Assembly: GCF_003977615.1 (NCBI RefSeq)
Contig: NZ_RYZR01000007.1
Location: 372,001-436,000 of the forward strand
DNA from: Dyella dinghuensis
GTDB lineage: Bacteria; Pseudomonadota; Gammaproteobacteria; Xanthomonadales; Rhodanobacteraceae
Length of the DNA: 64,000 bases
Reading direction: 5' to 3'
The notes under the pieces: model-generated
Seen by the model: only the letters and a program-made list of their open reading frames with translations
The model's database searches: none
What the model was told of the DNA's origin: nothing
Position numbers and translations under genes: made by a program
Part shown: one piece after another, positions 3,058 through 33,391 of the stretch
Numbering within the stretch: the stretch's first letter is position 1
How the letters are laid out: the number at the start of each line of letters is the position of its first letter

Positions 3058-4785
3058 ATGCCGACTCATCCGTTCGTCACATGGAAGTCAACAATCTTTG
3101 TTTTTTTTGTCGCGTTGGCGCTTCTGTTGTTGTCGATGGATCGCACAATGAATATCTACGACGAAGGGATTGTCCTAACAGATGCACAGCTGACCTTGCA
3201 TGGTGCCGTAGTGCACCGCGACTTTCATTCTGTATACGGCCCTGGTTCTTACGCAATTCTCGCTTTTCTTTTTTGGCTATTCAGTCCGAGCTTCATCGTC
3301 GCTCGTCTTTTTGGCGTAACCGTACAAGCGCTGATAGTTACTCTTGCTTTTGCAATTCTAAGGGCTCGCGTAGACATTCGGATTGCGATTGGTTTTGTCG
3401 CGATTTGCCTGATGTGGTTGATCGCCAGCGCAAACTATCTATATCCCACCTATCCGTGTTTGCTATTGACACTGGTTGGTTCAGGGGCATTGATGAGTCG
3501 GGGGGCGGCCACGCGTCGCTCTGCATTACTTGTCGCGGGATGTTGCTGCGGTCTAAGTACCTACTTTCGTTACGATGCAGGCTTCTTCGTATTTGTGGCA
3601 TATGCACTAGCGATCACGCTATTTGTGATGAAAGAGCAAGAGTCGCGTAGTCTAGGGCTCCAACGCGTTCTTCGCAGCGTCTCATTACTGGCACTTGGGG
3701 CATTTGTTGTCTTTATGCCTGGACTCATCGTATATCTTGCGACTTCACCACTATCTGCATTCCGTGCAGATATCATTGACTACGGATTGAAAATTTACCC
3801 GTCGACTAGAGCTTTGCCATTCCCAGGTGTTCAGGCATTGCTGATTGATCCAGCTCAGTTTGGCGTTTACCTGACGCCGGTTGTTGTTGTATTGGCGATA
3901 CCCATGGCATCGCGTGAATATGCTTCCATTGGGCACGATAAGACAATGAGTGATCAACAGAGCGGTGTGCCGTTTGCACTGCTATTTGGCCTGCTGTCAA
4001 TTGTTTTGTACTACAAGGGTTTTGTGCGGGTATCGGTTTCGCAGATGATTTTTGCAATTGTCCCGGCTTTGGCGTTATTCGCTTTTTTGATCGAAAAATA
4101 TCGAAAAGATCGAGGTTGGCTTCGACTAACCACGGTAGTCGCGGCGTCAGTAATTGTTTCGACCTCGGTGATTGCAGCGGCGGACCAATTTGGTCCGTTT
4201 CAGTATGATCCGCAACGCTACGTCTTCGGGCTGTTTGAGCAGCGCATTGGTTTGCTCGATCGCGAGCCGCAACTAAGTGATCGGTGTCTTGCATGGACCG
4301 GTATGAGGTTCGCCTTGCTGAAACCACCCTACCTTCTGGTTGGGCGATACATAAACCGGCACACCGATCAAAACGAACGCATATTGGTGGGCTTAGATAG
4401 GCACGACAAGATTTTTATAAATCCAATGTCGCTCTACTACGCTTCGGATAGGCTGCCAGGTACGCGCTGGTCACAATATGACCCGGGAATTCAAAATTCT
4501 CAAGAAATACAGGGCGAAATGATTAAAGATCTGAAGCGTAACGATGTGCGTTACGTTGTGCGTGATACATCCTTCGATAGCAAAAAGGAGCCTAATGAAA
4601 GTGCTATAAGTACGGGAGTGCATCTGTTGGACTATTACTTGGCAGCTCAATATAGGCCAATAGCAAAATCGGGAAATGTGCAAGTGTGGTTGAGGAACGA
4701 TGTTGTGGCGGCGATGGACGATGACGTTCCTACGTGTCGCCTAGAGTCAATGGATGCATCCACATCTGGCTCTATCGGGCGCTAG
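3058..4785 (+). CDS. Membrane protein, probable GT-C glycosyltransferase
   Basis: 575 aa. A signal-anchor segment (FFVALALLLLSMD) is followed by a periplasmic loop with DEGIVLTDAQLTLHG and then HRDF.SVYGPGSY. An acidic pair in this first loop is the usual catalytic or metal-binding signature of GT-C enzymes (ArnT, PMT, PglB-like). About ten further hydrophobic segments run to residue ~385, followed by a soluble periplasmic C-terminus (NDVRYVVRDTSF). GT-C enzymes transfer sugars from polyprenyl-phosphate donors in the periplasm; donor and acceptor are unknown here. Base composition is distinctly AT-rich against its neighbours, suggesting horizontal acquisition. Codons 15-17 contain a run of eight T (3101-3108). 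The gene stands alone, followed by 207 nt without a gene. Confidence 0.65.
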   Translation: MPTHPFVTWKSTIFVFFVALALLLLSMDRTMNIYDEGIVLTDAQLTLHGAVVHRDFHSVYGPGSYAILAFLFWLFSPSFIVARLFGVTVQALIVTLAFAILRARVDIRIAIGFVAICLMWLIASANYLYPTYPCLLLTLVGSGALMSRGAATRRSALLVAGCCCGLSTYFRYDAGFFVFVAYALAITLFVMKEQESRSLGLQRVLRSVSLLALGAFVVFMPGLIVYLATSPLSAFRADIIDYGLKIYPSTRALPFPGVQALLIDPAQFGVYLTPVVVVLAIPMASREYASIGHDKTMSDQQSGVPFALLFGLLSIVLYYKGFVRVSVSQMIFAIVPALALFAFLIEKYRKDRGWLRLTTVVAASVIVSTSVIAAADQFGPFQYDPQRYVFGLFEQRIGLLDREPQLSDRCLAWTGMRFALLKPPYLLVGRYINRHTDQNERILVGLDRHDKIFINPMSLYYASDRLPGTRWSQYDPGIQNSQEIQGEMIKDLKRNDVRYVVRDTSFDSKKEPNESAISTGVHLLDYYLAAQYRPIAKSGNVQVWLRNDVVAAMDDDVPTCRLESMDASTSGSIGR

Positions 4786-4992
4786 GCGCCTGCTGCAATG
4801 AGTAATAAATGTTTGATGATTTGGCGAACATGCGAGCGATGTGATTGAGCTTAGGGTCCGTCTGAGTTTCTGCTATAGCCTTTGCGTGTTTTGCTGACTG
4901 GCATGAGGGCGACGTCAACTCGATCCGCTGTAGAATTGGTTCGAAGTAAGAGGCTGGCTTGGATGTCCGCGTGTACGCCATTAGGGTGAGCT

Positions 4993-5991
4993 ATGAATGG
5001 GTGGGGGCCAGATGAATTGGAAGCAGGTGTTGTATGCCCGTCATGTGGCTCACGCACGAAAGCTTTGACGCTGTATCAAGAATTGCACGATAACGTTGAG
5101 GGCATCCCTGGTAAGTGGAGTATCAGGCGCTGCTCACAATGCAGGAGTCTTTACCTGGACCCTAGGCCGAAACCCGAGGCGATTGCCAAAGCATACGCTT
5201 CGTACCACACGCACGACCGCGGTTCAGACGAATATGCCCGCGATAACGGCAATTCGTTATTTTGGAAATTGGCAAACGGTTACATGAATGCCCGATACGG
5301 CTCGGCACGAACACCGGCCTTGGAATCGGGTTGGCGGATCATGTCTTTGTTGCCTCCTTTACGCCAGCAATTGGATTATTTCTACAGGCATCTGCCTTCC
5401 CGGCCTGGGCGTCTCCTGGACGTCGGATGTGGAAACGGAGTGTTTTTGTTAAGGGCGAAGGCCGCCGGGTGGGATGTGGTGGGGTTGGAGCCAGATCCGG
5501 CCGCCGTGGCTGCTGCGCGTGAATGTGGTTCTGATGTTCGACAAGGCACATTGGAGAGCTCCGTTGTAACCGGGCCATTTAATGTAATCACAGCGGCACA
5601 TGTCATCGAACACGTCCATCAACCCCAGCTCTTTCTTAAGCGAATTTTCGACTTGTTGGCGAAAGATGGCCACGTTTGGATCGCTACCCCAAATGTGCAA
5701 GGGATGGGCCATCGCTGGTTTGGCCGTGCTTGGCGTGGTCTGGAGCCACCTCGCCACATGGTGCTGTTCTCAAGGAAGGCCTTGCGCAAGCTGTTGGAAG
5801 ACGCGGGGTTTAGGGAGATTACGTTTCTCCGCCGTGGTCGCGGGTCGTTTTACGTATTGCACGCGTCGCACGAGGCTGCACTGAAAGAGGGCCGCAAGAA
5901 ATTTAAACTCCCCGCCCCCGCTGTAGACTTGGCCGCTTCGATTTTTGCCTCGACGGGAGAGGAGTGGGTTGTACGCGCAAAAAAGCCCTAA
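4993..5991 (+). CDS. Zinc-ribbon class I SAM-dependent methyltransferase
   Basis: 332 aa. The N-terminus has a four-cysteine zinc ribbon: CPSCGSRT at about residue 15 and CSQCRSLYLDPRP at about residue 49. The Rossmann-type SAM domain follows: motif I LLDVGCGNGVFLLRAKAAGW, acidic residue in GLEPDP, then HVIEHVHQPQLFLKRI and HVWIATPN, as in the Methyltransf_23/UbiG-like group. This architecture is common in surface-polysaccharide clusters, where such enzymes methylate sugars or modify glycan ends. The substrate cannot be read from sequence. The start has a GGTGAG ribosome site six bases upstream. It sits between the GT-C gene and the glycosyltransferase operon on the same strand. Confidence 0.8.
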   Translation: MNGWGPDELEAGVVCPSCGSRTKALTLYQELHDNVEGIPGKWSIRRCSQCRSLYLDPRPKPEAIAKAYASYHTHDRGSDEYARDNGNSLFWKLANGYMNARYGSARTPALESGWRIMSLLPPLRQQLDYFYRHLPSRPGRLLDVGCGNGVFLLRAKAAGWDVVGLEPDPAAVAAARECGSDVRQGTLESSVVTGPFNVITAAHVIEHVHQPQLFLKRIFDLLAKDGHVWIATPNVQGMGHRWFGRAWRGLEPPRHMVLFSRKALRKLLEDAGFREITFLRRGRGSFYVLHASHEAALKEGRKKFKLPAPAVDLAASIFASTGEEWVVRAKKP

Positions 5992-6006
5992 GTTTGAGTC
6001 TCAAAC
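5992..6006. repeat. Short perfect palindrome after the methyltransferase stop
   Basis: GTTTGAG-T-CTCAAAC begins at the base after the TAA stop. There is no T-run, so it is not a convincing terminator. The following 135 nt (6007-6140) hold no gene. Confidence 0.4.
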
Positions 6007-6140
6007 GCGGCTTCCAGGCAGAGTGTCAAGGTGGAACGTCGTTAAGGCACGCACCGTTAGGTCTTGGGCTAAAGGTATCGGCACAGCTGACATAGGCTAA
6101 CCAGCAGTCAGGGTTGAAGGTGTAGCTGATTAGGATCGCT

Positions 6141-6156
6141 TGGCCGGCTAATTGCG
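6141..6156 (+). promoter_or_regulatory. Candidate sigma54 (-24/-12) promoter of the glycosyltransferase operon
   Basis: TGGCCGGCTAATTGCG has GG-N10-GC spacing and eight of the ten fixed bases of TGGCAC-N5-TTGC. The predicted transcription start, about 12 nt downstream, lies before the TTG codon at 6224 and after the upstream ATG at 6152. It therefore also argues for the downstream start of the next gene. The two pilin genes in this window have the same promoter type. Confidence 0.55.
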
Positions 6157-6223
6157 AAGCATTCCGATACATGCTTACGCGGGCGCAGGTTATGATTCAA
6201 CAACCTTTTCAGGAGTCTGCGCT

Positions 6224-7078
6224 TTGTTCCATCTAAGCATCATTTTGCCGGCTAAAAATGAAGCGCCTGCGCTCGCGAGCCTCATACCACGGATAGTGTC
6301 TCTTCATCCCGACGCTGAGGTCATAGTTGTCGACGACGGGTCGACCGATGACACGCCGAGCCTGTGTGGCCAGCATGGCGTGCGCTGCTTGTCGTCACCC
6401 TATTCGATGGGAAATGGAGCGGCGATCAAACGCGGTGCGAGAGCTGCGACAGGCGAGATCCTGGTCTTCATGGATGGCGATGGCCAGCATGATCCGGCTG
6501 ATATTGTGCGCATGCTGGAGAAGCTCGATCAGGGGTACGACATGGTCGTAGGCGCTCGTGATTGGAGCAGCCAGGCCGGAGTGGGAAGAGGGCTGGCAAA
6601 TACCCTATATAACTGGCTGGCTTCTCGGATGACTGGGCACGCGGTCGCCGATCTTACATCGGGCTTCAGAGTGATTCGCGCAAACAAGTTCCGCGAATTT
6701 CTACACTTGTTGCCGAATGGATTCAGTTACCCGACTACAAGCACCATGGCGTTCTTTCGTAGCGCTTATCCTGTGGCGTATGTACCCATCAAGGCATCTC
6801 AGCGCATTGGCAAGAGTCACATAAAACCGCTGCGTGATGGTCTGCGGTTTTTGCTGATCATATTTAAGATTGCGACGCTCTATTCGCCAATGAAACTGTT
6901 CGTGCCAGCCAGCGCGGTTTTCTTTGTTCTTGGTTTGGCGAATTACGCATGGACATATCTTCACGAAGGCCGTCTCACAAATATGAGCACTTTGATGTGG
7001 AGTGCTTCTGTCATTGTTTTTTTAATCGGTCTCGTGTCTGAACAAATTACTGCTCTGACGTATCGGCGCGATGACTGA
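6224..7078 (+). CDS. GT2 glycosyltransferase (dolichyl/polyprenyl-phosphate sugar synthase-like)
   Basis: 284 aa from the TTG at 6224, chosen because AGGAG lies eight bases upstream, the product then begins MFHLSIILPAKNE as GT2 enzymes do, and a sigma54-like promoter covers the alternative ATG at 6152. GT-A fold motifs: DDGSTDDT (nucleotide binding) and DGDGQHDP (DxD metal site). Two hydrophobic segments at the C-terminus (LFVPASAVFFVLGLANYAWT; SASVIVFLIGLVSEQ) are typical of polyprenyl-phosphate mannose/glucose synthases of the DPM1/GtrB type. Such enzymes make the lipid-linked monosaccharide donor that GT-C transferases use, which fits the GT-C/TMTC-like genes nearby. It is the first gene of an operon with overlapping members and overlaps the next by 8 nt. 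Confidence 0.8.
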   Translation: MFHLSIILPAKNEAPALASLIPRIVSLHPDAEVIVVDDGSTDDTPSLCGQHGVRCLSSPYSMGNGAAIKRGARAATGEILVFMDGDGQHDPADIVRMLEKLDQGYDMVVGARDWSSQAGVGRGLANTLYNWLASRMTGHAVADLTSGFRVIRANKFREFLHLLPNGFSYPTTSTMAFFRSAYPVAYVPIKASQRIGKSHIKPLRDGLRFLLIIFKIATLYSPMKLFVPASAVFFVLGLANYAWTYLHEGRLTNMSTLMWSASVIVFLIGLVSEQITALTYRRDD

Positions 7079-8249
7079 GAGACGTCGACCACGCATTCTG
7101 ATCATCACGCGAAACTTGCCGCCGCTTGTGGGCGGCATGGAAAGATTGAATTGGCACATGGCCGAAGAGTTGGCCAAGCATGCGGACGTAATCGTTATTG
7201 GTCCGCAAGGTGCGGCAGCGATGGCGCCTCAAGGTGTCCGCGTGCGTGAAGTGCCATTACGTCCATTGTGGCGTTTCATATTTTCCGCCGCGATGATGAC
7301 CTTGCGAGAGGCTAGAGAATTTCTGCCTGACGTCGTGCTGGCCGGAAGCGGGCTGACCGCGCCGATTGCATTGATCGCGGGCCGAGTGACGAAAGCACGA
7401 ACCGCTGTGTATGTTCACGGGTTGGATTTAACAACGCGGCACGTCATTTATCGCATGGCATGGATTCCTGCTATTCGTCGTATGCATCGCGTTATTGCCA
7501 ACAGTCGCGCATCTGCCACTTTGGCAACGGATATACGTGTCAAGCCCGATGAAATAGCAATCGTGCATCCAGGTGTCGAGATTCCCGATATCATTGTTGA
7601 TGTGCAGAGCATCCGGCTTTTCCGACAGCAGTTGGGACTTGCGACAAACACCATCCTGCTATCCGTAGGGCGCTTAAGCGAGCGCAAAGGTCTGCGCGAA
7701 TTCGTCCGCGAGTCTTTGCCGCGGATCGTGGAGCAAAAGCCGGACACGGTGTTGCTTGTAGTGGGTGACGAACCTCGCGATGCGTTGAACGCCAAAGCTC
7801 AAACGCGCGCCAGCATTCAGGAAGAAGCCGTTAAGGCTGGTGTTGGTGAGCATGTGAAGTTTTTAGGTGTTGTCACCGATAGGGACCAGTTATTGACAAT
7901 CTATCGAGCTAGCGTCGTACATGTATTCCCCGTGCGGCAGTTGCCGGGTGATCCGGAGGGTTTTGGGATGGTTGCCGTAGAGGCTGCTGCGAGCGGCATT
8001 CCAACGGTAGCATTTGCGACCGGCGGTATCGTTGATGCAGTTGCGGACGGTGTGTCAGGACGTTTGGTAAAGCCTGGGGACTACTCGTCCTTTTCTGAAG
8101 CCGTGATCGAAACAATCGCGTATTCGAGCAACCAGCAAGAAAAATGTCGCGACTTCGCTCTGCAGTTTGCATGGTCCCATTTCGGAGATCGCGTTTTTAA
8201 CGAAATACTTGGCGATGCGCATGCTTCCGATGAGGAAGTGTCAGGATGA
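7071..8249 (+). CDS. GT4 family glycosyltransferase
   Basis: 392 aa, GT-B fold. The N-terminal domain starts RILIITRNLPPLVGGMERL, the usual glycine-rich entry loop of GT4. The C-terminal domain has LLSVGRLSERKGL at about residue 200 and the nucleotide-sugar site PEGFGMVAVEAAASGIPTVA, containing the E-x7-E signature, then GGIVDAVADG. It is predicted to be a cytosolic or membrane-peripheral retaining transferase that adds a sugar to a lipid-linked oligosaccharide; the donor is unknown. It overlaps the preceding GT2 by 8 nt and the following methyltransferase by 4 nt (ATGA), showing one translationally coupled operon. Confidence 0.85.
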   Translation: MTERRRPRILIITRNLPPLVGGMERLNWHMAEELAKHADVIVIGPQGAAAMAPQGVRVREVPLRPLWRFIFSAAMMTLREAREFLPDVVLAGSGLTAPIALIAGRVTKARTAVYVHGLDLTTRHVIYRMAWIPAIRRMHRVIANSRASATLATDIRVKPDEIAIVHPGVEIPDIIVDVQSIRLFRQQLGLATNTILLSVGRLSERKGLREFVRESLPRIVEQKPDTVLLVVGDEPRDALNAKAQTRASIQEEAVKAGVGEHVKFLGVVTDRDQLLTIYRASVVHVFPVRQLPGDPEGFGMVAVEAAASGIPTVAFATGGIVDAVADGVSGRLVKPGDYSSFSEAVIETIAYSSNQQEKCRDFALQFAWSHFGDRVFNEILGDAHASDEEVSG

Positions 8250-24352: not shown

Positions 24353-25192
24353 TTATCGGCGAACCACGCGGAACTGTTGCACGCGGCGGTCGTCGGATTG
24401 GGTGACGTGGAATTCGAAGTTGCCGATGGCGATCTGCTCGCCGACTTCCGGCAGGTGACCGAATTCGGAAGTGGCCATGCCGCCGATGGTGTCGAACTCT
24501 TCGTCGGAGAACGAGGCACCGATTTCTTCATTGAAGTCGGCGATCGGCGTGAGGGCGTCCACGATCCACTCGCCGTCGGCTTGCGCGTGCATCAGATCGG
24601 GCTCTTCCTCGTCGTCATGCTCGTCGTCGATCTCGCCGACGATTTCTTCCAGCACGTCTTCGATGGTGACGAGGCCGGCGACGCCGCCGTATTCGTCTAC
24701 CACCAGCGCCATGTGATTGCGGCTGCGGCGGAATTCGGCCAGCAGCACGTTCAGGCGCATCGATTCGGGAATCAGCACGGCTGGACGCAAGATCGAACGG
24801 ATGTCGAAGTCGTGGCCGTTGCCGAAGTACTTCAGCAGATCCTTGGCGAGCAGAATGCCGAGGATGTCGTCCTTGTCTTCGCCGTGCACAGGAAAGCGTG
24901 AGTGCCCGGATTCCACCACGGCAGCGAGAATGTCATCGAGCGGGGCGTCGACGTCGATCATGACGATCTGGACGCGAGGCACCATCACGTCATCGACGTT
25001 GAGCTCGGTGACTCGCAGCGCGCCTTCCAGCATGGGAAGGGTATCGGCGCTAAGCAGGCCATTGGCCTGGGCGGTGCGCAACTCGTCGATCAGTTCTTCG
25101 CGGTTGCGTGGTTCGCCGGAAAACAAATGGCCCAGTCGATCCCACCATTTTCGGTGGGCCGGGCCGCTGGTACTGCCAGGGTCCTCGTTCAT
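24353..25192 (-). CDS. corC: CorC/HlyC family CBS-domain protein
   Basis: 279 aa. Two CBS motifs (VMVPRVQIVMIDVDAPLDDI and the region RRSRNHMALVVDEYGGVAGL) are followed by an acidic linker (DDEHDDEEEPD) and the C-terminal CorC_HlyC domain (IGASFSDEEFDTIGGMATSE). It is a soluble protein linked to Mg2+/Co2+ efflux and, in many proteobacteria, part of the miaB-phoH-ybeY-corC-lnt operon. Here the first three of those genes lie 6.7 kb upstream on the same strand, separated by an exopolysaccharide-type cassette. The gap to the Lnb-domain gene is 77 nt. Confidence 0.93.
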   Translation of the reverse strand: MNEDPGSTSGPAHRKWWDRLGHLFSGEPRNREELIDELRTAQANGLLSADTLPMLEGALRVTELNVDDVMVPRVQIVMIDVDAPLDDILAAVVESGHSRFPVHGEDKDDILGILLAKDLLKYFGNGHDFDIRSILRPAVLIPESMRLNVLLAEFRRSRNHMALVVDEYGGVAGLVTIEDVLEEIVGEIDDEHDDEEEPDLMHAQADGEWIVDALTPIADFNEEIGASFSDEEFDTIGGMATSEFGHLPEVGEQIAIGNFEFHVTQSDDRRVQQFRVVRR

Positions 25193-25322: not shown

Positions 25323-26840
25323 TTATCGAACGGCGCTTACCGACTGCCGCTGCGACATGGCCCCGGCCGCAGTGCCACGACCGTTGGGGGCCTGGACTTC
25401 GCGCCAGCCGCCGCCCAAAGCCTTATAGAGGTTGACCTGGTTCACCGCCTGATCCAGCTGCAGGCTGACCAGTTTCTCCTGCGCGGTATAGAGCGAGCGC
25501 TGGGCGTCCTGGGTGGCCAGGTAGTCGTCCATGCCGTCTTTGAAGCGCTCCTGGGAGATGGTGTAGACGTGTTGCGACTGGTCCACAAGTTCTTGCTGGG
25601 CTTGCAGTTCCGGCACGATGTGGTCGCGCACGGCCAGGTCGTCGGCGACTTCACGGAAGGCTTCCTGGATGGTTCCTTCGTAAGCGGCCACCGCTCCACT
25701 GTCGCGGGCCTTGCTGGCGCTGAGTTCGTTTTCATTCTTGCCCCAGTCCAACAGCGGCACGCTGCCGGAGACACCGGTACTCCAGGCGGCGGAGCTGGCG
25801 CGGAAGAGGTTGGACAAACCGCCGCTCAAGGTGCCAAGCACCGCGGTCAGCGCGATATTGGGGAAAAACGCGGCGCGTGCGCGCCCAATGTCGGCGTTGG
25901 CGGCGCGCAGCCGATCCTCGGCGGCGACGATGTCGGGGCGACGGTCTAGCAGCGAGGACGGTAGGCCAGCCGGTACATCGGTCAACAAGGGCGCTTGCCA
26001 TGGGCGGGGCGTTGCGTAATCCGGCAGCACGGGCTGGCCGATCAGCACCGCCAGCGCATCCATGTCCTTGGCGATGCGTATCTGCATATCCTGCACATCC
26101 ACTTGCGCGGCATCGACCTGTGTTTGCGAACGACGCATGTCGAATTCCGACGCGCCACCATCGCGGTAGGCCTTTTGCATCACGTTGGCGTGGCCGTTCT
26201 GGTCGGTCTCGGTCTCTTGCGCCAATTGCAGCAACGCGCGGTCGGCGTTGAGCGACAGATAAGCATTGGCGACTTCGCCGATCAGCGCGATGCGTGCAGC
26301 TTCGTAATCGGCTTCACTGGCCTGGGCCAACTTGCCCGACTCGTGTGCGATGGCGCGCTCGTGGCCGAAGAAATCCAGCTCATAACTCGTCATGCCCGCC
26401 TGCACCTGGTACGTATTGAACGTCGTCGCGCTATTGCGGTTGTTTTCGATCGGACCAAGCAGACCCGCCGAAGGCTCTTGCGTCATGGCGGGCAAGCGTT
26501 GGCGTCCTGCGTAGCCTTGCAGATCGATCTCGGGGAACAGGCTGGCGCGCGTTTCGCCATAGTCGGCGCGCGCCTCGGCCATCTTGGCGGCGGCAACGCG
26601 TAGATCGCGGTTGTTGGTCAACGCGATTTCGATCAGGCGCTGCAGTACCGGATCCTTGAAGAACGCGTGCCAGTCCATCTCAGCGGCGTCGATAGGTGCT
26701 GCTGCCGATGCCGATGTGGTGCCTGCGCCCGACGGATACGTGTTGGGCACAGGCATAGCCGGGCGCTGGTACGTCGGCTCCATCGAGCAACCGGCCAGTG
26801 CACAACTGGCAACGGCGGCGGAAAAGAGCAGTGACTTCAT
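25323..26840 (-). CDS. Outer-membrane efflux lipoprotein, NodT/TolC family
   Basis: 505 aa. A lipoprotein signal with lipobox (FSAAVASCALAGCSMEPTYQ) is followed by two OEP repeats typical of RND-type outer-membrane factors (TNNRDLRVAAAKMAEARADY; LLDRRPDIVAAEDRLRAANA; GLSNLFRASSAAWSTG). The trimer would form an outer-membrane barrel and periplasmic tunnel. No RND or MFS pump is encoded nearby. Instead it is the last gene of a cassette with an HlyD-type adaptor and a cellulose-synthase-like glycosyltransferase, so it is more likely the outer-membrane exit for a polysaccharide. It starts 13 nt after the synthase gene. Confidence 0.9.
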   Translation of the reverse strand: MKSLLFSAAVASCALAGCSMEPTYQRPAMPVPNTYPSGAGTTSASAAAPIDAAEMDWHAFFKDPVLQRLIEIALTNNRDLRVAAAKMAEARADYGETRASLFPEIDLQGYAGRQRLPAMTQEPSAGLLGPIENNRNSATTFNTYQVQAGMTSYELDFFGHERAIAHESGKLAQASEADYEAARIALIGEVANAYLSLNADRALLQLAQETETDQNGHANVMQKAYRDGGASEFDMRRSQTQVDAAQVDVQDMQIRIAKDMDALAVLIGQPVLPDYATPRPWQAPLLTDVPAGLPSSLLDRRPDIVAAEDRLRAANADIGRARAAFFPNIALTAVLGTLSGGLSNLFRASSAAWSTGVSGSVPLLDWGKNENELSASKARDSGAVAAYEGTIQEAFREVADDLAVRDHIVPELQAQQELVDQSQHVYTISQERFKDGMDDYLATQDAQRSLYTAQEKLVSLQLDQAVNQVNLYKALGGGWREVQAPNGRGTAAGAMSQRQSVSAVR

Positions 26841-26853
26841 AACAGTCTCCGAA

Positions 26854-28827
26854 TCATCGCGAAGGAAAGATGGATACGCCAGCCGTGCGCATCAGCTGCA
26901 CGAATGCACGCAGCGGATGTGCTTTCACGGCAATGTTGTGTGGCGCCTGGCAGAAGATCAGTTTGATCAGGCGATGCCGTGTCGCTTCATCCGGTTCGAA
27001 CTGCACGCAAAGGCGGTGCTTGGCCAGGCGCGTGACGCGCGCGGGTACCCAGCCGACTTCCGGCACGGATACATCCAACATTTGACCTACCGCCGGCATC
27101 GCCGGCCCACCGCGCAACGCGGCGCCGCCCAGCGAGATATCGATAAATTCGCTATGGCGCACATGATGGCCCTGGCGCCAATGCGTCGCACGCGTGAACG
27201 GAAAGCGTTCTTCCTGTCGCGGCCGCGGTAAGTCCACGCAGGCCGCAATCGCGGCCAGGTCCAGCACCAGCGCCATCAGTGTCCACGCAAGATTGAAGAT
27301 AATGCCGCCACTCATCTGCGCAGTGATCACTGTATTCACCGCCCCCGCGATCAAACACAGCATCAACGCGATGAAGAAGCCGGCGAGTTTCCAGTGCACC
27401 ACCACCTTGCTGCGATCCAAGCCCTTGGCGGTGACTTTGAACGGACGTCCAAACGGGCGAATGCAGGCGGAAATCATCGTGCGGGTTACTGCATAAGCGG
27501 CGACGAGCTGGGTCACTTCGGTGAAGATCGGCAGCGTCTTGCGTTCGGTGATCCACGGACCGTAGAACCAGAATCCGATCAGCGCCGGCATGCCGTAGAA
27601 CATGAACTGCTCCGGCGTCGTGTAGAACGCGGCGATGCCGAAATACCAGTACAGCACCGGTGCGATCAACATCAGCAGCAGGAACGGTTTGCCGATCCAG
27701 TGCAGCATGCCGTGCAGATAGTGCAGGCGGTCGATCAGGTTGTAACCCTCACCACGCAGTGGGCCGTTCTTCAGCAAAGCCACTTGCATCGTGCCAAGGC
27801 ACCAGCGGCCGCGCTGATTGATGTATTCGATCAAACCCTCGGCGGACAAACCGATCGACAGACGTTCGTTGAGCCAGCGCGTGATATGGCCGTTTTTGCG
27901 CAATACGTATGTGGTGTGAATGTCTTCGCACACGCTGTCGGTGGGAAAGCCGCCAGCCGCAGTGATCGCCGCGCGCGACACCACGAACGATGTGCCGACG
28001 CAGAACGCGGAATCCCATGCATCACGCGACGGCTGGAAGACATCGAAGAACACGCGCTGCTCGTCGACCCAGCTGTCGGTCGTGCCGAGGTTGTGCTGAA
28101 TCGGATCGGCGTTGTAGTAGAACTGCGGCGTTTGAACCAGCGCCACTTTCTTTTCACTGAATAGGCCAAGCACGCGGTAGAGAATGTTTTTCTGCGGCGC
28201 AAAGTCGGCATCGAGCACCAGGATGTAGGGTGCGTTAGTCACTTGCGCGGACAATCGAAGGCCGTTGTTCATGTTGCCGGCCTTGGCGTGGCGATTGTCC
28301 GGGCGGCGAGCGTAGTGCACGCCCATCTTCGCGCAGTAGTCGCGCAACCAGTCGCGGCGCGTGTCGTCGAGCACCCAGACATTGACGTGCGGATAATCGA
28401 TCGCTTTCGCCGAAACGATGGTTTTTTCGAGAATTTGCAGGTCTTCGTTATAGGTCGCGATAAACACATCGACTGCCGGAACGTTGGTGCCAGCCTCGCG
28501 CAATCGCGCTTCGCCAGCATCGGCGTAAGGCCGCGAATCGCGCCTGCGCACCATCACCACGATAGTCGCAAGCGTGTAGACGATGGAGACCATCTCGAAA
28601 GCGTAAAACACGTAAGACCACACGCTGGCAAAGCCATGCGTGGGATCAGGCAACGTGTCGGTGCTGCGCCATAGCGCATAGCGCAACAGCAGCGCGCCGG
28701 AAAATGCACCGAATATCAAGCGACCCCACATGCGATGCGGATTCGCCAAGCGCGACATGCCGAAGCCGAAAAGCACGGTCAGCCCGATTACCTGCAACAG
28801 ATTCATCGTGTCGACAGAGGACATCAT
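26854..28827 (-). CDS. Cellulose-synthase-like processive GT2 with C-terminal PilZ domain
   Basis: 657 aa from the ATG at 28827, which overlaps the upstream stop (ATGA); the open frame extends further upstream but only as a shadow of the neighbouring gene. Two membrane helices, then the GT-A core with the processive-synthase signature: Asp in VLDDTRRDW, DxD in VLDADFAP, CEDIHTTYVL in place of TED, and QRGRWCLGT (QxxRW). Further membrane helices follow, then a PilZ domain from about residue 535 with RQEER (RxxxR) and DISLGG (DxSxxG), the complete c-di-GMP-binding pair. It should polymerise and translocate a beta-glucan or similar polymer. There is no bcsB or bcsC nearby; the partners are HlyD- and NodT-like, as in mixed-linkage-glucan BgsAB or curdlan-type systems, so bcsA is not a safe name. 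Confidence 0.88.
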   Translation of the reverse strand: MMSSVDTMNLLQVIGLTVLFGFGMSRLANPHRMWGRLIFGAFSGALLLRYALWRSTDTLPDPTHGFASVWSYVFYAFEMVSIVYTLATIVVMVRRRDSRPYADAGEARLREAGTNVPAVDVFIATYNEDLQILEKTIVSAKAIDYPHVNVWVLDDTRRDWLRDYCAKMGVHYARRPDNRHAKAGNMNNGLRLSAQVTNAPYILVLDADFAPQKNILYRVLGLFSEKKVALVQTPQFYYNADPIQHNLGTTDSWVDEQRVFFDVFQPSRDAWDSAFCVGTSFVVSRAAITAAGGFPTDSVCEDIHTTYVLRKNGHITRWLNERLSIGLSAEGLIEYINQRGRWCLGTMQVALLKNGPLRGEGYNLIDRLHYLHGMLHWIGKPFLLLMLIAPVLYWYFGIAAFYTTPEQFMFYGMPALIGFWFYGPWITERKTLPIFTEVTQLVAAYAVTRTMISACIRPFGRPFKVTAKGLDRSKVVVHWKLAGFFIALMLCLIAGAVNTVITAQMSGGIIFNLAWTLMALVLDLAAIAACVDLPRPRQEERFPFTRATHWRQGHHVRHSEFIDISLGGAALRGGPAMPAVGQMLDVSVPEVGWVPARVTRLAKHRLCVQFEPDEATRHRLIKLIFCQAPHNIAVKAHPLRAFVQLMRTAGVSIFPSR

Positions 28828-30107
28828 GGCCGGCGCCCTGCCGAAGTGTCCGCCACACTGGCAATCGGGCGGCCCGTGAAGGGATTCCAACTCTTCGCCG
28901 CGATGGCTGCCCATGCAGTCGCGCCCAGGTGAGGCTGGTGGTAGTAGAAGAAATCGGAGTACGTGGATGTGGGGCCGATGGCGAAGTCGGTGCTGATGCG
29001 CGGTTGCGGCGTGGCGTAGAGCATGCCGCCGTTGCTGCGTTGTGCGGCGATCAGTTGCCACAAGGTATCGGGCACCGGTTTGTTGCTTGCTTGCATCGCC
29101 GTGGCGACCTGCGCGCTGCCCTCCGTCCATATGCCGTCGGGCTGGCGTCGATAGCCGTAACCGTCGCCGCTGCGATGTTGCGTATCGACCCACGTCCACA
29201 CCTGATTCCATTCAGTCGGGTGCGGATTGAAGGCCAGTAGCGGCCACACTTGTGCATCCAGTCCGGATTTGTCGCGCGAGAGCGTCTTGCCGTCGTCGAG
29301 CGTGCCGACGAGGAAACGATGTTGACTGTCGTCCCACATGGCTTTGACGAAACTGGCTGCGATTTTCGCCTGTTGCGCCAGCGCGGCATCGGCGCTCTCG
29401 CGGTTGGCCCAGGTCGCCGCCGCATAGACATCGATATTGTGCTCGGTCGCTTTCCAGTGTTGTGCGCGCTGTGCATTGTCGTAACCGAAAAGGCCGCCTT
29501 CGTACGCAAACGGTGCGGTGCCATTTACGTGGGTTTGAATCCAGCGAAGTTGCGCGACGGCGGCATCCAGATAGCGGCGATCGTGCGTGGTGTCGTAAAC
29601 GGTCAACAGCAGCAGCGCGGCCCACGCAACGTTGCCCGTGGCGGTGCCGACTTGATACGGATCCTGACTCCAGTAATTGCCGTGGCTTTGCCAATAGCCC
29701 GGTAGTTCGATTTTGTTGCCCTCGATCGCGCCGCTGCGATACGCATTTCGCAGTCGCCCGTCCTTGAACGTGGGATCGTTCGCGGCGGCGAGCACGAAAG
29801 CATCGGCGATGCGCTTTGCCTGCGCGGGTTCTCCGCACGCGGTAAGTGCGATGCCGGCGAGTGCGTTGTCGTAGACGAACGCCACGTTCTCCAGTGCGCG
29901 AGTCGCGTCATCGCCCCGTTTCAGGCTCGGATAGCTAGGCAGCAACATCGGGCCGCTGCCGGGTATCGCGGTCGCTGCCGAACGCAATGCCGTGCAGGTG
30001 TCGCCGGCCAACTGCTGTTGCGCTGTTCCGGATGCGCGAAGCTGGGCCGATGCGATCGTCATCAAGATCAGCCCGATGCTGGTCGCGAGGTGCCATCGCT
30101 TGGACAT
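28824..30107 (-). CDS. Secreted six-hairpin glycosidase-like protein
   Basis: 427 aa from the ATG at 30107, which has GAGAG just upstream and starts a good signal peptide (MSKRWHLATSIGLILMTIAS). A GTG at 30134 overlapping the upstream stop is the alternative. The mature protein has repeating helical pairs with aromatic and acidic residues (VAFVYDNALAGIAL, ATGNVAWAALLLLTVYD, EHNIDVYAAATWANR, DGIWTEGSAQVATAM, STYSDFFYYHQPHLGATAW) typical of (alpha/alpha)6 barrels of six-hairpin glycosidases. It occupies the place that the GH8 endoglucanase BcsZ has in cellulose operons, so it may trim or edit the polymer in the periplasm. I could not assign a GH family or catalytic residues with certainty. Confidence 0.65.
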   Translation of the reverse strand: MSKRWHLATSIGLILMTIASAQLRASGTAQQQLAGDTCTALRSAATAIPGSGPMLLPSYPSLKRGDDATRALENVAFVYDNALAGIALTACGEPAQAKRIADAFVLAAANDPTFKDGRLRNAYRSGAIEGNKIELPGYWQSHGNYWSQDPYQVGTATGNVAWAALLLLTVYDTTHDRRYLDAAVAQLRWIQTHVNGTAPFAYEGGLFGYDNAQRAQHWKATEHNIDVYAAATWANRESADAALAQQAKIAASFVKAMWDDSQHRFLVGTLDDGKTLSRDKSGLDAQVWPLLAFNPHPTEWNQVWTWVDTQHRSGDGYGYRRQPDGIWTEGSAQVATAMQASNKPVPDTLWQLIAAQRSNGGMLYATPQPRISTDFAIGPTSTYSDFFYYHQPHLGATAWAAIAAKSWNPFTGRPIASVADTSAGRRP

Positions 30108-30130
30108 GCCGATCTCTCTTCGTCGGTTGG

Positions 30131-31399
30131 TCACATCAAGCTCGCTGTCACGCTACGGCCCGGCATACAGGTTGGCGGCGTGGCGTTGCTGCGGTCGTTA
30201 TCCCACTGTGCAAGCGCGTAGACGGAACCGTCTTCCGCATAAGGGAACGGTGCGCTGAAACCATTCTGCATGGATTCGGTGGCCTTGGGCAGCAACTGCG
30301 TGATATGCGCATCATGTGCGCGAGCGCCGTCGTTGACGCGTACGCGCAGCTCCGTGCCGACATTGAGACGGGATGCCATGCGTGCCGGAAAAACCGCGAC
30401 GACGTCGGTCTTGTTGCAGTCCGTCGCACGCACCAGCGTTGAACCGGCAGTCACCTGTGTCCCGACGGGTGCAACCACTTCCTGCGTGGTTCCGGCCGAA
30501 AAGGCTTTGACGACATAATCAGAGAGCGTTTGTACGCGACCCTGCTCATGGTCGATCAGCTGATTGAGATTGGCAAGCTGGGTGCCAAGCGCATCGGCTT
30601 GCGCTTCTTCGTCTTTGATACTGTTTTGCAGATCGGCACGTCGTTGTGACAGTTGCGGCAATTGACCGTTGCTATCCTGGCCGGCGGAGACATAGACCCC
30701 GCGCTTGGCGGCGTTGATGCCGGCGCCTACGCTGTCTGCGTTCTGATCCATCGCATCGGCTTCACTGCGTGCGGCATCCGCCTCGGCGCGTGCTTCTTCC
30801 ACGACGGATGCGCTGATCGCACCATCGCGTTCCAGCGCCATGTCTCGTGCGTACTTGGCATCGAGTTCTTCCAGCTTCGCCGATGTGGCGTCCTGTTGTG
30901 CCTGGATGGACTCATACGTGCTTTGCAACTGACTGACGCTAGCCTGCTGATATTTTTTGTATTGTCCGTCGGTGTAGTCGAGCATGCGTTGATCCGCTTG
31001 CAAACGGCTGCGCAGATCATCCAGGTGGCCTTGTAGTTCCAGCCGCTGGGTGAGCAGTGTGGTCAACGAGTCGCGTGCGACCGTAGTGTTCTTCACGACC
31101 GCAATGGATTGTCCCGGTTGGATGGGCTGTCCGTTTTGTGCGTATTGCGCGCTAACCGTGCCGCTGATCGGTGTGGTGATCAAAACGGCAGGGGCGTTGA
31201 GAGCGGCACGCGTGGCGCTGGTAGAGACCCATGGTTCAAACAACGTCTTGAGCAACAGCCATGCGATGAAAGCCATCAGTGCATAGCCGGCAAGACGCGG
31301 TACGAACGCTAGCGGAGATTTTTTTGGTGAACTTATATCGCGAGCGGGTACAGGTTGAGTTTGGGGTAACGGTTCAGTGGGGAGTAGCTGAGTTTTCAA
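30131..31399 (-). CDS. HlyD-family membrane fusion (periplasmic adaptor) protein
   Basis: 422 aa from the TTG at 31399 (MKTQLLPTEPLPQTQ), preceded by AGAGG about nine bases upstream. The frame is open to an ATG at 31477, but that has no ribosome site and yields an unlikely cysteine-rich start. One N-terminal membrane helix (LAGYALMAFIAWLLLKTLF) anchors a periplasmic adaptor: first biotinyl-lipoyl half (TTPISGTVSAQYAQNGQPIQ), a long coiled coil of about 180 residues, second half (FSAGTTQEVVAPVGTQVTAG) and a beta-barrel. It would bridge an inner-membrane synthase and an outer-membrane channel. It is first in the four-gene cassette, with a GTGA/TGA junction to the glycosidase-like gene. Confidence 0.9.
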   Translation of the reverse strand: MKTQLLPTEPLPQTQPVPARDISSPKKSPLAFVPRLAGYALMAFIAWLLLKTLFEPWVSTSATRAALNAPAVLITTPISGTVSAQYAQNGQPIQPGQSIAVVKNTTVARDSLTTLLTQRLELQGHLDDLRSRLQADQRMLDYTDGQYKKYQQASVSQLQSTYESIQAQQDATSAKLEELDAKYARDMALERDGAISASVVEEARAEADAARSEADAMDQNADSVGAGINAAKRGVYVSAGQDSNGQLPQLSQRRADLQNSIKDEEAQADALGTQLANLNQLIDHEQGRVQTLSDYVVKAFSAGTTQEVVAPVGTQVTAGSTLVRATDCNKTDVVAVFPARMASRLNVGTELRVRVNDGARAHDAHITQLLPKATESMQNGFSAPFPYAEDGSVYALAQWDNDRSNATPPTCMPGRSVTASLM

Positions 31400-31893
31400 A
31401 ACACATCGCCTCTGTTGATGGGCATCGCGCAGACACCTGCACCCGTACGCCGAAGCGGGGCGGAGGAAAGAGCACATCTCACATCGAGATAGCGCAACAG
31501 ATTTGCTTATGTCCGACTGGCAGAAGAAGGCTTACGTGCCGCGAATCGTCATGACGACGGTTCCTGATTGATGCGCTGCGTCAGTGCCGAACACGTAAAG
31601 GAATAGTTGGAACGCCATGAACCGGCGCTGTCTTCAATCGCGTAAGTGCGCCACATCAGTTAGATTTGAGTTCAAAAAATGAATGTGCTTCATTCAATGC
31701 ACACACGCTGTCGACAATTCTTCGACAGACATATGGCCTGTTACTGGCGCATTGCAGCACGTAGTCGTGCTAAGTAGTTGATAGTCATCCATGGCGGATG
31801 ACGTGCCACGTTCGCGAGTGATGGAGCTTCGAAAACACCAGCGTGTTCAGTGCGTGACACACGTTGCATGAATCGCGGCATTGTGCCGAACGT
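31400..31893. other. Upstream region of the exopolysaccharide cassette, ~490 nt
   Basis: This lies between ybeY and the HlyD-type gene, both on the minus strand. It holds an AT-rich block at about 31660-31735 with two palindromes (listed separately), the likely promoter/operator of the cassette. The 260 nt between that block and the HlyD start would be a long leader. No gene, terminator with T-run, or tRNA was seen. Confidence 0.5.
31680..31728. promoter_or_regulatory. Two tandem palindromes, candidate operator of the exopolysaccharide cassette
   Basis: TGAATG-TGCTT-CATTCA (31680-31696) and CTGTCGA-CAATTCT-TCGACAG (31708-31728), centres 30 nt apart or about three helical turns, sit in the AT-rich stretch upstream of the HlyD-type gene. 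Such spacing suits cooperative binding of a dimeric regulator. The regulator is unknown. Confidence 0.45.
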
Positions 31894-32391
31894 TTAAACG
31901 TCGCGCTCGACCGCGTAAGGATCGGCGATGCCGAGTCTGGCGAGAATGCGTGTTTCGAGCGCTTCCATCGTTTCGGCTTCCGCATCGTCGATGTGATCGT
32001 AACCGAGCAGATGCAAGACGCCATGCACGGTCATGTGCGCCCAGTGGTCGCGTGCACGCTTGCCTTGTTCAGTCGCTTCGCGCGTAACCACCGGTGCGCA
32101 GATCGCCAGGTCGCCGATGAGCGGAAGCGTTACGCCTGGCGGCAATTCCACCGGAAACGACAGCACGTTGGTGGCGTAGTCCTTCTCGCGATAATCGCGA
32201 TTGAGACGTCGGCCCTCGCGCGTGCCGACGATGCGGATCGCCAATTCCGCCGGCTTGCGTCGCTTGGCACCCGCGAGCGCAGCATCGGCCCATCGACGGA
32301 AGCTGAGCGACGAGGGTAAGCCCGTGCGTGCCACGCCGTAATTGACGTGGACGATATGCGAAGCCGAAGCGGTTTTCTTACCTGGCGCCAT
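31894..32391 (-). CDS. ybeY: Endoribonuclease YbeY (rRNA maturation factor)
   Basis: 165 aa from the ATG at 32391 ([10 protein letters not shown]). The zinc-binding signature [11 protein letters not shown] lies at about residue 123, with the [16 protein letters not shown]-like core visible as [15 protein letters not shown]. YbeY is a single-strand-specific metallo-RNase acting in 16S rRNA 3' end maturation and 70S quality control. It overlaps the end of phoH by 14 nt, the standard arrangement. Sequence upstream of 32391 in the same frame belongs to phoH in another frame. Confidence 0.95.
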
Positions 32392-33391
32392 TGCCTTGTT
32401 TCCCCGCTGCTTGGTCGGCCTCGGCTGCTTGCTCGAAGGCCTCGTAGGCACGCACGATTTTGGCGACCAGCGGGTGACGCACAACGTCGCGCGACGTGAA
32501 GAAGGTGAAGCTGATGCCGTCTACGCCGCGCAACACTTCGATGGCGTGACGCAGTCCCGAACGCACATGGCGGGGCAGGTCGATCTGACTGACGTCACCC
32601 GTGATCACCGCCACCGAGCCGAAACCGATGCGCGTGAGGAACATCTTCATCTGCTCGACGGTGGTGTTCTGCGCTTCGTCGAGAATCACGTAGGAATCAT
32701 TCAGGGTGCGGCCGCGCATGTAGGCGAGCGGTGCGATCTCGATCACGTTGCGTTCGATCAGCTTGGCGACTTTTTCGAAGCCGAGCATTTCGTACAGCGC
32801 GTCGTAGAGCGGGCGCAGGTAGGGGTCCACCTTTTGCGACAAGTCGCCGGGCAGAAAGCCGAGTTTTTCGCCCGCTTCCACGGCGGGACGAACGAGCAGC
32901 AGACGTTGCACGCGATTGGCTTCGAGTGCTTCGACCGCACTCGCTACGGCAAGATAGGTTTTGCCAGTGCCGGCTGGGCCAACACCGAAGCTGATGTCGT
33001 GCGTGTTGATCGCATGCAGATAGCGCGCCTGGTTCGGGCCGCGACCTTTGATCACGCCGCGCTTCACCTTGATGGTGACGTCCTGCGCGCTCTCGGCCGC
33101 GTCGTCGGTGATCGCTTCGATGCCCGAATCGGCAAGCTGCAGATTGATTTTCGCGCCGGTCAGCGATTCGTTTTCGGTCGCCGTGTAAAGCGCCTTAAGC
33201 ACTTTCTCGCCCGCGCGCGCAGCGCCTTCTTCGCCGATCACTTGAAACAGATTGCCGCGGTGATCGATTTCCACACCCAGGCGCAATTCGATCTGACGCA
33301 GGTGTTCGTCAAACGGGCCGCACAGATTGGCGAGCCGGGCGTTGTCTTCCGGATCGAGGGCGAAGTCGCGTTGGTTCAAGCCGTTGGTCAT
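32378..33391 (-). CDS. ybeZ: PhoH family ATPase (YbeZ)
   Basis: 337 aa. Walker [17 protein letters not shown], Walker [20 protein letters not shown], and [17 protein letters not shown] after it define the PhoH-like ATPase. The N-terminal ~100 residues form a KH-like RNA-binding region ([20 protein letters not shown]). YbeZ interacts with YbeY in ribosome maturation. It follows miaB by 182 nt and overlaps ybeY, so these genes form the conserved miaB-phoH-ybeY unit. Confidence 0.95.

Follow-up and report, generated by a model that had tools for sequence, protein, structure and literature searches.

An operon of Dyella dinghuensis that probably encodes a pump-less, tripartite-efflux-like machine for beta-glucan secretion

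We analysed a stretch of 64,000 nucleotides from Dyella dinghuensis (contig NZ_RYZR01000007.1, positions 372,001 to 436,000; hereafter, the window). It carries four adjoining genes, which encode a HlyD-type periplasmic adaptor, a protein resembling glycoside hydrolases (GH) in its fold, a family 2 glycosyltransferase (GT2) with a PilZ domain, and a NodT-type outer-membrane factor (OMF). From sequence comparisons and structure models we consider it probable that these genes encode a dedicated machine that secretes a linear beta-glucan through a tripartite conduit lacking a pump. An exopolysaccharide machine is supported by the gene order in 80 homologous loci, by co-occurrence of the genes in the same genomes, and by a natural in-frame fusion of synthase and channel in Variovorax. 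The EmrA-like fold and docking motif predicted for HlyD, together with an OMF-HlyD-GT2 layout in a distant genome, lend further support. An earlier note on this DNA had proposed a complete machine for exopolysaccharide, reaching from the inner to the outer membrane through a tunnel like that of tripartite efflux systems, and these lines of evidence favour that proposal.

The genes form a tight operon on the minus strand, transcribed in the order hlyD, GH-like gene, GT2-PilZ gene and nodT, with gaps of −4, −4 and +13 bases between successive genes (Table 1). This spacing and the family-model matches agreed with the earlier note's account of four tightly spaced or overlapping genes. Two starts were ambiguous: hlyD may begin at the TTG at 31399, used by most orthologues, or at the ATG at 31477, and the GH-like gene at the GTG at 30134 or the conserved ATG at 30107. 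Within the operon stretch, sigma-70-like promoters were absent (0 seen, 2.1 expected) and terminator-like sites numbered 7 (7.0 expected). Open reading frames (ORFs) and Pfam searches revealed no RND, MFS or ABC gene within the operon or immediately adjoining it, so that the lack of a pump claimed in the earlier note held for the operon and its direct neighbours. Neither BcsB nor BcsC was encoded beside GT2, whose neighbours were HlyD, the GH-like protein, NodT, ybeY and corC; in gene content, the operon thus has HlyD and NodT instead of BcsB/BcsC, as the earlier note stated.

A scan of genome contigs with a GT2 alignment yielded 97 confirmed GT2 relatives, 80 of which served as homologous loci. 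These span Dyella, Frateuria, Rhodanobacter, Variovorax, Burkholderiaceae and Bordetella and, among the alphaproteobacteria, Methylobacterium, Bradyrhizobium and Rhizobium. The GH-like gene lay directly before GT2 in 80/80 loci, and hlyD preceded the GH-like gene in 77; in the three misses (L103, L120, L127) the contig starts at or inside the GH-like gene, where HlyD could not show. NodT directly followed GT2 in all 59 beta- and gammaproteobacterial loci. Because gene order is conserved across the homologous loci, the sequence data exclude chance as the source of the four-gene arrangement. The survey of gene order around homologous synthases that the earlier note had proposed therefore found a conserved order.

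Close GT2 orthologues (79–100%) occurred in nine of 148 relatives, and full-length HlyD and NodT were found in the same nine. Further GT2 matches in the 148 relatives (29–35%) fell at 13 places in 12 genomes, four of them among the nine, and isolated matches comprised a weak HlyD in G097 and a 44% NodT in G079. One genome, G009, carried a decaying operon (L034, ~4433–7431) in which GT2 was gone, HlyD was reduced to its last 83 residues, NodT was shortened N-terminally and the GH-like gene was intact. Judged from these sequences, the synthase, HlyD and NodT genes are gained and lost together, in relatives that are not independent of one another.

Among 369 genomes sampled evenly from the class, a close homologue was present in the source genome alone; GT2 matched at 36–39% in three others, and G308 had a lone NodT match at 37%. 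All three of these distant GT2 genes had HlyD beside them. One of the three (L173:4807-10127) showed the order OEP, HlyD, GT2 and a 327-residue protein, with no GH of the window type. That 327-residue protein had no Pfam match, and the gene at the same position in L172 gave a weak GH26 match. Twelve plasmid loci comprised three of BcsA (L159, L162, L163), one of A. caldus (L161) and eight others (L153-L158, L160, L164; BgsB-BgsA included). In all eight of the last group HlyD stood directly before GT2 or, in Nitrobacter, with the GH-like gene between them; the A. caldus locus, a galU-GT2 pair without annotated HlyD, was excluded from this count and from the tree described below. A Pacificitalea plasmid (L160:4608-8977) has an annotated GH8 ahead of HlyD-GT2, so that another hydrolase takes the position of the GH-like gene there. 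Plasmid At of Agrobacterium fabrum C58 (L154:6708-9878) has a two-gene HlyD-GT2 unit, annotated as cellulose synthase, that falls outside the window's clade.

The most surprising form of this HlyD-linked kind of synthase is found in Variovorax, where GT2 and NodT form a single ORF, with no stop between them, in 18/18 loci (in L096 the contig end falls inside NodT). In both fusions examined with Pfam (L083, L097), the GT2 domains and two OEP stretches lay in one ORF. The junction in L083 is the most hydrophobic segment of the protein (residues 667–685, mean Kyte-Doolittle value 2.73), and in Variovorax arginines lie ahead of this segment and the lipobox ends in SGC, GGC or TGC. Among 12 Variovorax loci with linkers of equal length, the 22 linker codons before the segment showed 235, 89 and 582 pairwise differences at codon positions 1, 2 and 3, respectively, a pattern typical of DNA that is translated. 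If PilZ lies in the cytosol, the junction segment would run from inside to outside and put NodT in the periplasm, and signal peptidase II could cleave the fusion before the lipobox cysteine. We regard as evenly balanced the further proposition that a polymerising synthase has taken the pump's place in the tripartite-efflux-like family and that the Variovorax polyprotein of ~1,130 residues is either cleaved by signal peptidase II, yielding synthase and channel in equal amounts, or remains joined as one trans-envelope chain. The fbcH cytochrome b/c1 polyprotein of Bradyrhizobium offers a precedent, although no paper listed by our literature search contains the term: a membrane protein continues in frame into an export signal and a further subunit that is exported. 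In the Variovorax fusion, the signal would be that of a lipoprotein.

HlyD scored below every NCBIfam adaptor cut-off (best TIGR01730, 39.7 against 94.9). Its AlphaFold model (mean predicted local distance difference test, pLDDT, 82) has a transmembrane helix at ~32–58, a long alpha-hairpin and a barrel-sandwich domain. In the model, the outgoing hairpin helix has 82 residues (110–191), the turn spans 191–197, and the return is split into 197–232 and 246–293. Foldseek placed EmrA (4tko, E 1e-16) and EmrA within EmrAB-TolC as its best matches. Adaptors dock on TolC through the motif RxxxLxxxxxxS/T, according to the accessible text of PMC3391258. The window's HlyD has this motif as R185-L189-S196, positioned at the hairpin turn and tip; the strict form has a probability of 0.017 of arising by chance in a single 26-residue stretch of shuffled hairpin. 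NodT scored 383 bits with TIGR01845 (cut-off 210), as expected from the earlier note's assignment to NodT-type OMFs, and its sequence shows the lipobox LAGC.

The window's GT2 has the motifs DD, DAD, CED and QRGRW and the gating loop FKVTAKG, and its PilZ motifs, RQEER and DISLGG, are both complete; the D, DxD, QxxRW and full PilZ motifs reported in the earlier note were therefore all present. In the accessible text of PMC5567048, PilZ receptors of cyclic di-GMP (c-di-GMP) are defined by RxxxR and (D/N)x(S/A)xxG. In the canonical columns both motifs were complete in the window, in 8/8 Dyella and in 30/30 Burkholderiaceae and Bordetella rows. With 26 GGDEF matches in its genome (4.2 Mb, 12 contigs), D. 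dinghuensis probably produces c-di-GMP.

The nearest named synthase locus was that of Dyella flava (87% for GT2). Identity to the window's GT2 was 40% for BgsA of S. meliloti, 41% for Ensifer BgsA and 27–31% for BcsA of three species. BgsA, not BcsA, is thus the nearest in sequence among the characterised synthases compared. A GT2 tree was built from 47 hand-thinned rows and rooted at the midpoint, with a program warning of long branches. It placed BcsA apart from the HlyD-linked synthases, with BgsA branching next, outside the window's clade. The NodT-bearing clade comprised 24 rows (support 93/96), within which the window's group was sister to Variovorax (100/99). The mixing of beta and gamma groups in this tree suggests gene transfer between them.

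We propose the following mechanism. By homology to BcsA, GT2 would polymerise UDP-glucose and pass the growing chain across the membrane by a channel of its own, and in this lineage c-di-GMP bound to PilZ probably opens the gating loop. HlyD would dock on the synthase in BcsB's place, and its EmrA-like hairpin, judged from motif and fold, would reach NodT, whose channel would replace BcsC. Export would be driven by growth of the chain rather than by a proton- or ATP-powered pump, and the GH-like enzyme may trim or release the polymer in the periplasm, by analogy with BcsZ. In Variovorax, synthase and channel would be translated together, and signal peptidase II could cleave the joint protein at its internal lipoprotein signal.

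We assign the polymer, on weak evidence, as a probable beta-glucan with 1,3-linkages, perhaps a mixed-linkage 1,3;1,4-glucan, because GT2 is closer to BgsA than to BcsA and because of the neighbourhoods of GH paralogues. Of 31 loci with distant GH paralogues, 12 (L059-L061, L063, L065-L072) have genes for a LacI regulator, a TonB receptor and an MFS transporter beside the paralogue, and the remaining 19 do not show this set. Nine of the 12 have further GH genes nearby: GH64 in three and GH3 in six, three of which also have GH16. Pfam named GH64 in one protein, GH3 in three and GH16 in one; the other loci were assigned by tblastn similarity. The 12 loci probably serve beta-glucan utilisation, and the GH64, GH3 and GH16 genes near the paralogues hint that the substrate of the GH is a glucan with beta-1,3- or mixed linkages. 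Separately, the source genome has a GH64 match (G000:C5:430112-431242) inside an ORF of 2831 residues, and 13 of 16 same-genus genomes searched had a GH64 match in an ORF of more than 2,700 residues.

A possible, though less favoured, alternative is that the machine works as proposed and makes plain cellulose, or a polymer containing a non-glucose sugar. TIGR03030 (cellulose synthase, CelA) was the best NCBIfam model for GT2, whose QRGRW and gating loop resemble those of BcsA. However, the TIGR03030 score of 379.5 bits is far under the cut-off of 699.1, and the window reads QTPQFYYN and FCVGTS where BcsA rows read QTPH and FFCGS. Cellulose is also disfavoured by the greater nearness of GT2 to BgsA and by GH64 or GH16 near GH paralogues in six of the 31 loci. 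Other differences in GT2 motifs (such as DDT for DDG) vary within the family and carry little weight.

The GH-like protein had no Pfam or NCBIfam match at E ≤ 0.01. GH8 was matched neither by the window's protein nor by any of 41 aligned members in Pfam, and GH127 gave a weak contact in two of those 41 (E ≤ 0.01). Against sequences in the PDB, a profile search returned 0 matches and a single-sequence search a best E of 0.35. In contrast, AlphaFold modelled it as an (alpha/alpha)6 barrel (pLDDT 92), and VIA-align gave Z values of 25.5–31.5 among the 50 matches listed, which include glycosidases, epimerases and phosphorylases. The top values lie close together and do not single out one nearest (alpha/alpha)6 family. 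On the sequence searches, GH8 or any other Pfam family was rejected for this protein; the fold alone was matched. The earlier description of this protein as six-hairpin-glycosidase-like was accordingly right for the modelled fold and wrong for the family. D89, E231, D235, D293 and E338 were invariant in alignments A3 (28 members) and A4 (41 members); A4 and A5 (33 sequences) were hand-picked from the 80 loci and the window for usable length and spread. Sequence and model point to a sequence-novel family of (alpha/alpha)6 enzymes, new here.

Several observations weigh against the proposed machine. Selection of the 80 loci rested on similarity of GT2, and the loci are related; their counts are therefore not independent, and the set is no measure of how frequent the family is. 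The HlyD model had a predicted template modelling score (pTM) of 0.47. The strict tip motif was found in 26 of 78 HlyDs (window counted) and was not strict in 52; of these, 34 passed only with L relaxed to L/M/I/V, a relaxation chosen after seeing the data, and 18 failed, 17 of them from Variovorax, the lineage carrying the fusion. The first PilZ arginine is K in Frateuria (one) and Rhodanobacter (two) and is present in 0/18 Variovorax, and both motifs are present in 0/21 alpha loci; Pfam PilZ was absent from both Variovorax proteins tested. Control by PilZ, as the earlier note had it, thus fits the intact motifs of the window but not the family as a whole.

The GH-like protein also has a life apart. 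It was matched in 42 of 148 relatives, four by way of short stretches only, a wider distribution than that of the machine, and in five relatives (L038, L043, L044, L048, L049) it stands alone at the ybeY-corC site. Because it persists alone there, it has some use outside the machine. The glycosidase's place in the system therefore holds in that it lies beside GT2 throughout the 80 loci, but the association is not strict. A quick GH tree that took four of the five lone loci (L048 excluded) placed them within the gamma operon clade or at its base. Together with the G009 remnant, these positions speak for repeated loss of hlyD, GT2 and nodT around the GH-like gene.

NodT was beside GT2 in 0/21 alpha loci and likewise was not found beside BgsA, so that the wider family can do without a dedicated channel. 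The source genome has ~19 other OMFs (40 half-matches), and NodT could be shared with other systems. These facts would fit a reading in which synthase and HlyD form a two-part exporter like BgsBA, and NodT is a convenience gene, mainly for other pumps and replaceable by any OMF; no linked OMF was present at the two BgsBA loci either. We judge this improbable, given that NodT adjoins GT2 at every beta and gamma locus, that it is fused in frame in all 18 Variovorax loci, and that, in the 148 relatives, close full-length NodT orthologues occur only in the nine genomes with the synthase. That HlyD and NodT, both from efflux families, serve an unlinked drug pump and neighbour the synthase by accident is very hard to credit, since it is contradicted by the gene order, the co-occurrence in nine of 148 relatives, the Variovorax fusion, the lack of a pump in or directly adjoining the operon, and the HlyD genes beside GT2 in distant class members.

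Table 1. Coordinates of the operon, its flanking genes and the Variovorax fusions
Feature	Position	Strand	Description
hlyD	30131-31399	-	inner-membrane-anchored periplasmic adaptor (predicted); Pfam HlyD_3 above cut-off
GH-like gene	28824-30134	-	secreted (alpha/alpha)6-barrel protein (predicted); AlphaFold model
GT2-PilZ gene	26854-28827	-	657 aa; processive glucan synthase (predicted) with C-terminal PilZ; Pfam GT2 and PilZ models above cut-off
nodT	25323-26840	-	TolC/OprM-class outer-membrane factor lipoprotein; TIGR01845, PF02321 in two stretches
ybeY	31894-32484	-	PF02130; upstream flank, outside system
corC-like gene	24353-25192	-	PF03471 and CBS; downstream flank, outside system
Variovorax fusion loci	L082-L085, L087-L100; e.g. 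L083:10004-13405		GT2-NodT ORF

The idea of HlyD-TolC export for a glucan synthase is already in print for cyanobacteria. According to the accessible text of a 2025 review (PMC12430437), XcsA and XcsB of Thermosynechococcus vulcanus have been proposed to form a tripartite tunnel with TolC, a model that the review calls unvalidated; it notes that no single operon holds the Xcs parts and raises the question of whether clusters encoded as operons work likewise. Export of this type by glucan synthases lacking BcsB/BcsC is thus an open question in print. An operon with all parts side by side, and a single synthase-channel gene in Variovorax, allow a direct test of that question in soil bacteria that are in culture. 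If the proposal is true, the pump of an efflux-type conduit has given way to a polymerase; the operon also contributes a putative family of (alpha/alpha)6 enzymes that is novel in sequence and probably acts on a beta-glucan. A search of partial texts, which left subscription papers and preprints mostly uncovered, turned up no report of NodT encoded in an operon with this synthase, nor of a synthase-NodT fusion. The accessible part of PMC8929069 tells of no such system. Text on celABC of Methylobacterium extorquens, whose deletion stops clumping and might remove the present system, names no domains. What is new here is the operon-encoded channel, the natural synthase-channel fusion and the putative enzyme family.

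By description, the Xcs system (XcsA, XcsB, XcsC) resembles ours in its GT2 with PilZ, its HlyD-like adaptor and the TolC-linked tunnel proposed for it, and it includes an endoglucanase. Of the parts in the XcsAB-TolC model, GT2-PilZ, HlyD and an OMF are present in the window, and the fourth window protein is a putative enzyme, (alpha/alpha)6 by fold only. The Xcs parts are scattered in the cyanobacterial genome, whereas here the OMF lies in the operon and, in Variovorax, is fused to the synthase.

BgsB-BgsA of S. meliloti, which makes a mixed-linkage beta-glucan, is similar in that BgsA resembles the window's GT2 at the identity given above and has a HlyD-type partner. The HlyD profile picked up BgsB (E 9e-39), which has an RxxxLxxxxxxT stretch as well; it is described as HlyD-like or as a membrane fusion protein in the accessible portions of PMC9495663 and PMC7902896. 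In contrast to our operon, the system consists of two genes only, with no linked GH or OMF. BgsA binds c-di-GMP through a non-PilZ C-terminal domain, in the available text of PMC5567048, whereas the PilZ domain at the C-terminus of the window's GT2 carries both motifs. In the alginate system, a GT2 synthase (Alg8) likewise has a partner with a HlyD domain (Alg44), by description, but PilZ lies on that partner and not, as here, on the synthase. Alg44 combines PilZ and HlyD_3, and the accessible text of PMC4594306 and PMC4971617 reports no protein with both domains in cyanobacteria.

The Bcs complex (BcsA-BcsB-BcsC, with or without BcsZ) shares a GT2-PilZ synthase with a gating loop and a periplasmic hydrolase of the (alpha/alpha)6 type; BcsZ is a GH8 enzyme with this fold. 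It differs in that no BcsB or BcsC stands beside the window's GT2, in the low identity of its BcsA, and in that the window's GH lies outside Pfam families. Membership of a Bcs cellulose complex was ruled out by the absence of these two partners and of GH8, and by a TIGR03030 score below the cut-off. Lastly, EmrAB-TolC and HlyBD-TolC share with our system an adaptor of EmrA-like fold, a docking motif and a TolC-class OMF, but where they have an energised pump, the Dyella operon would have a polymerising synthase.

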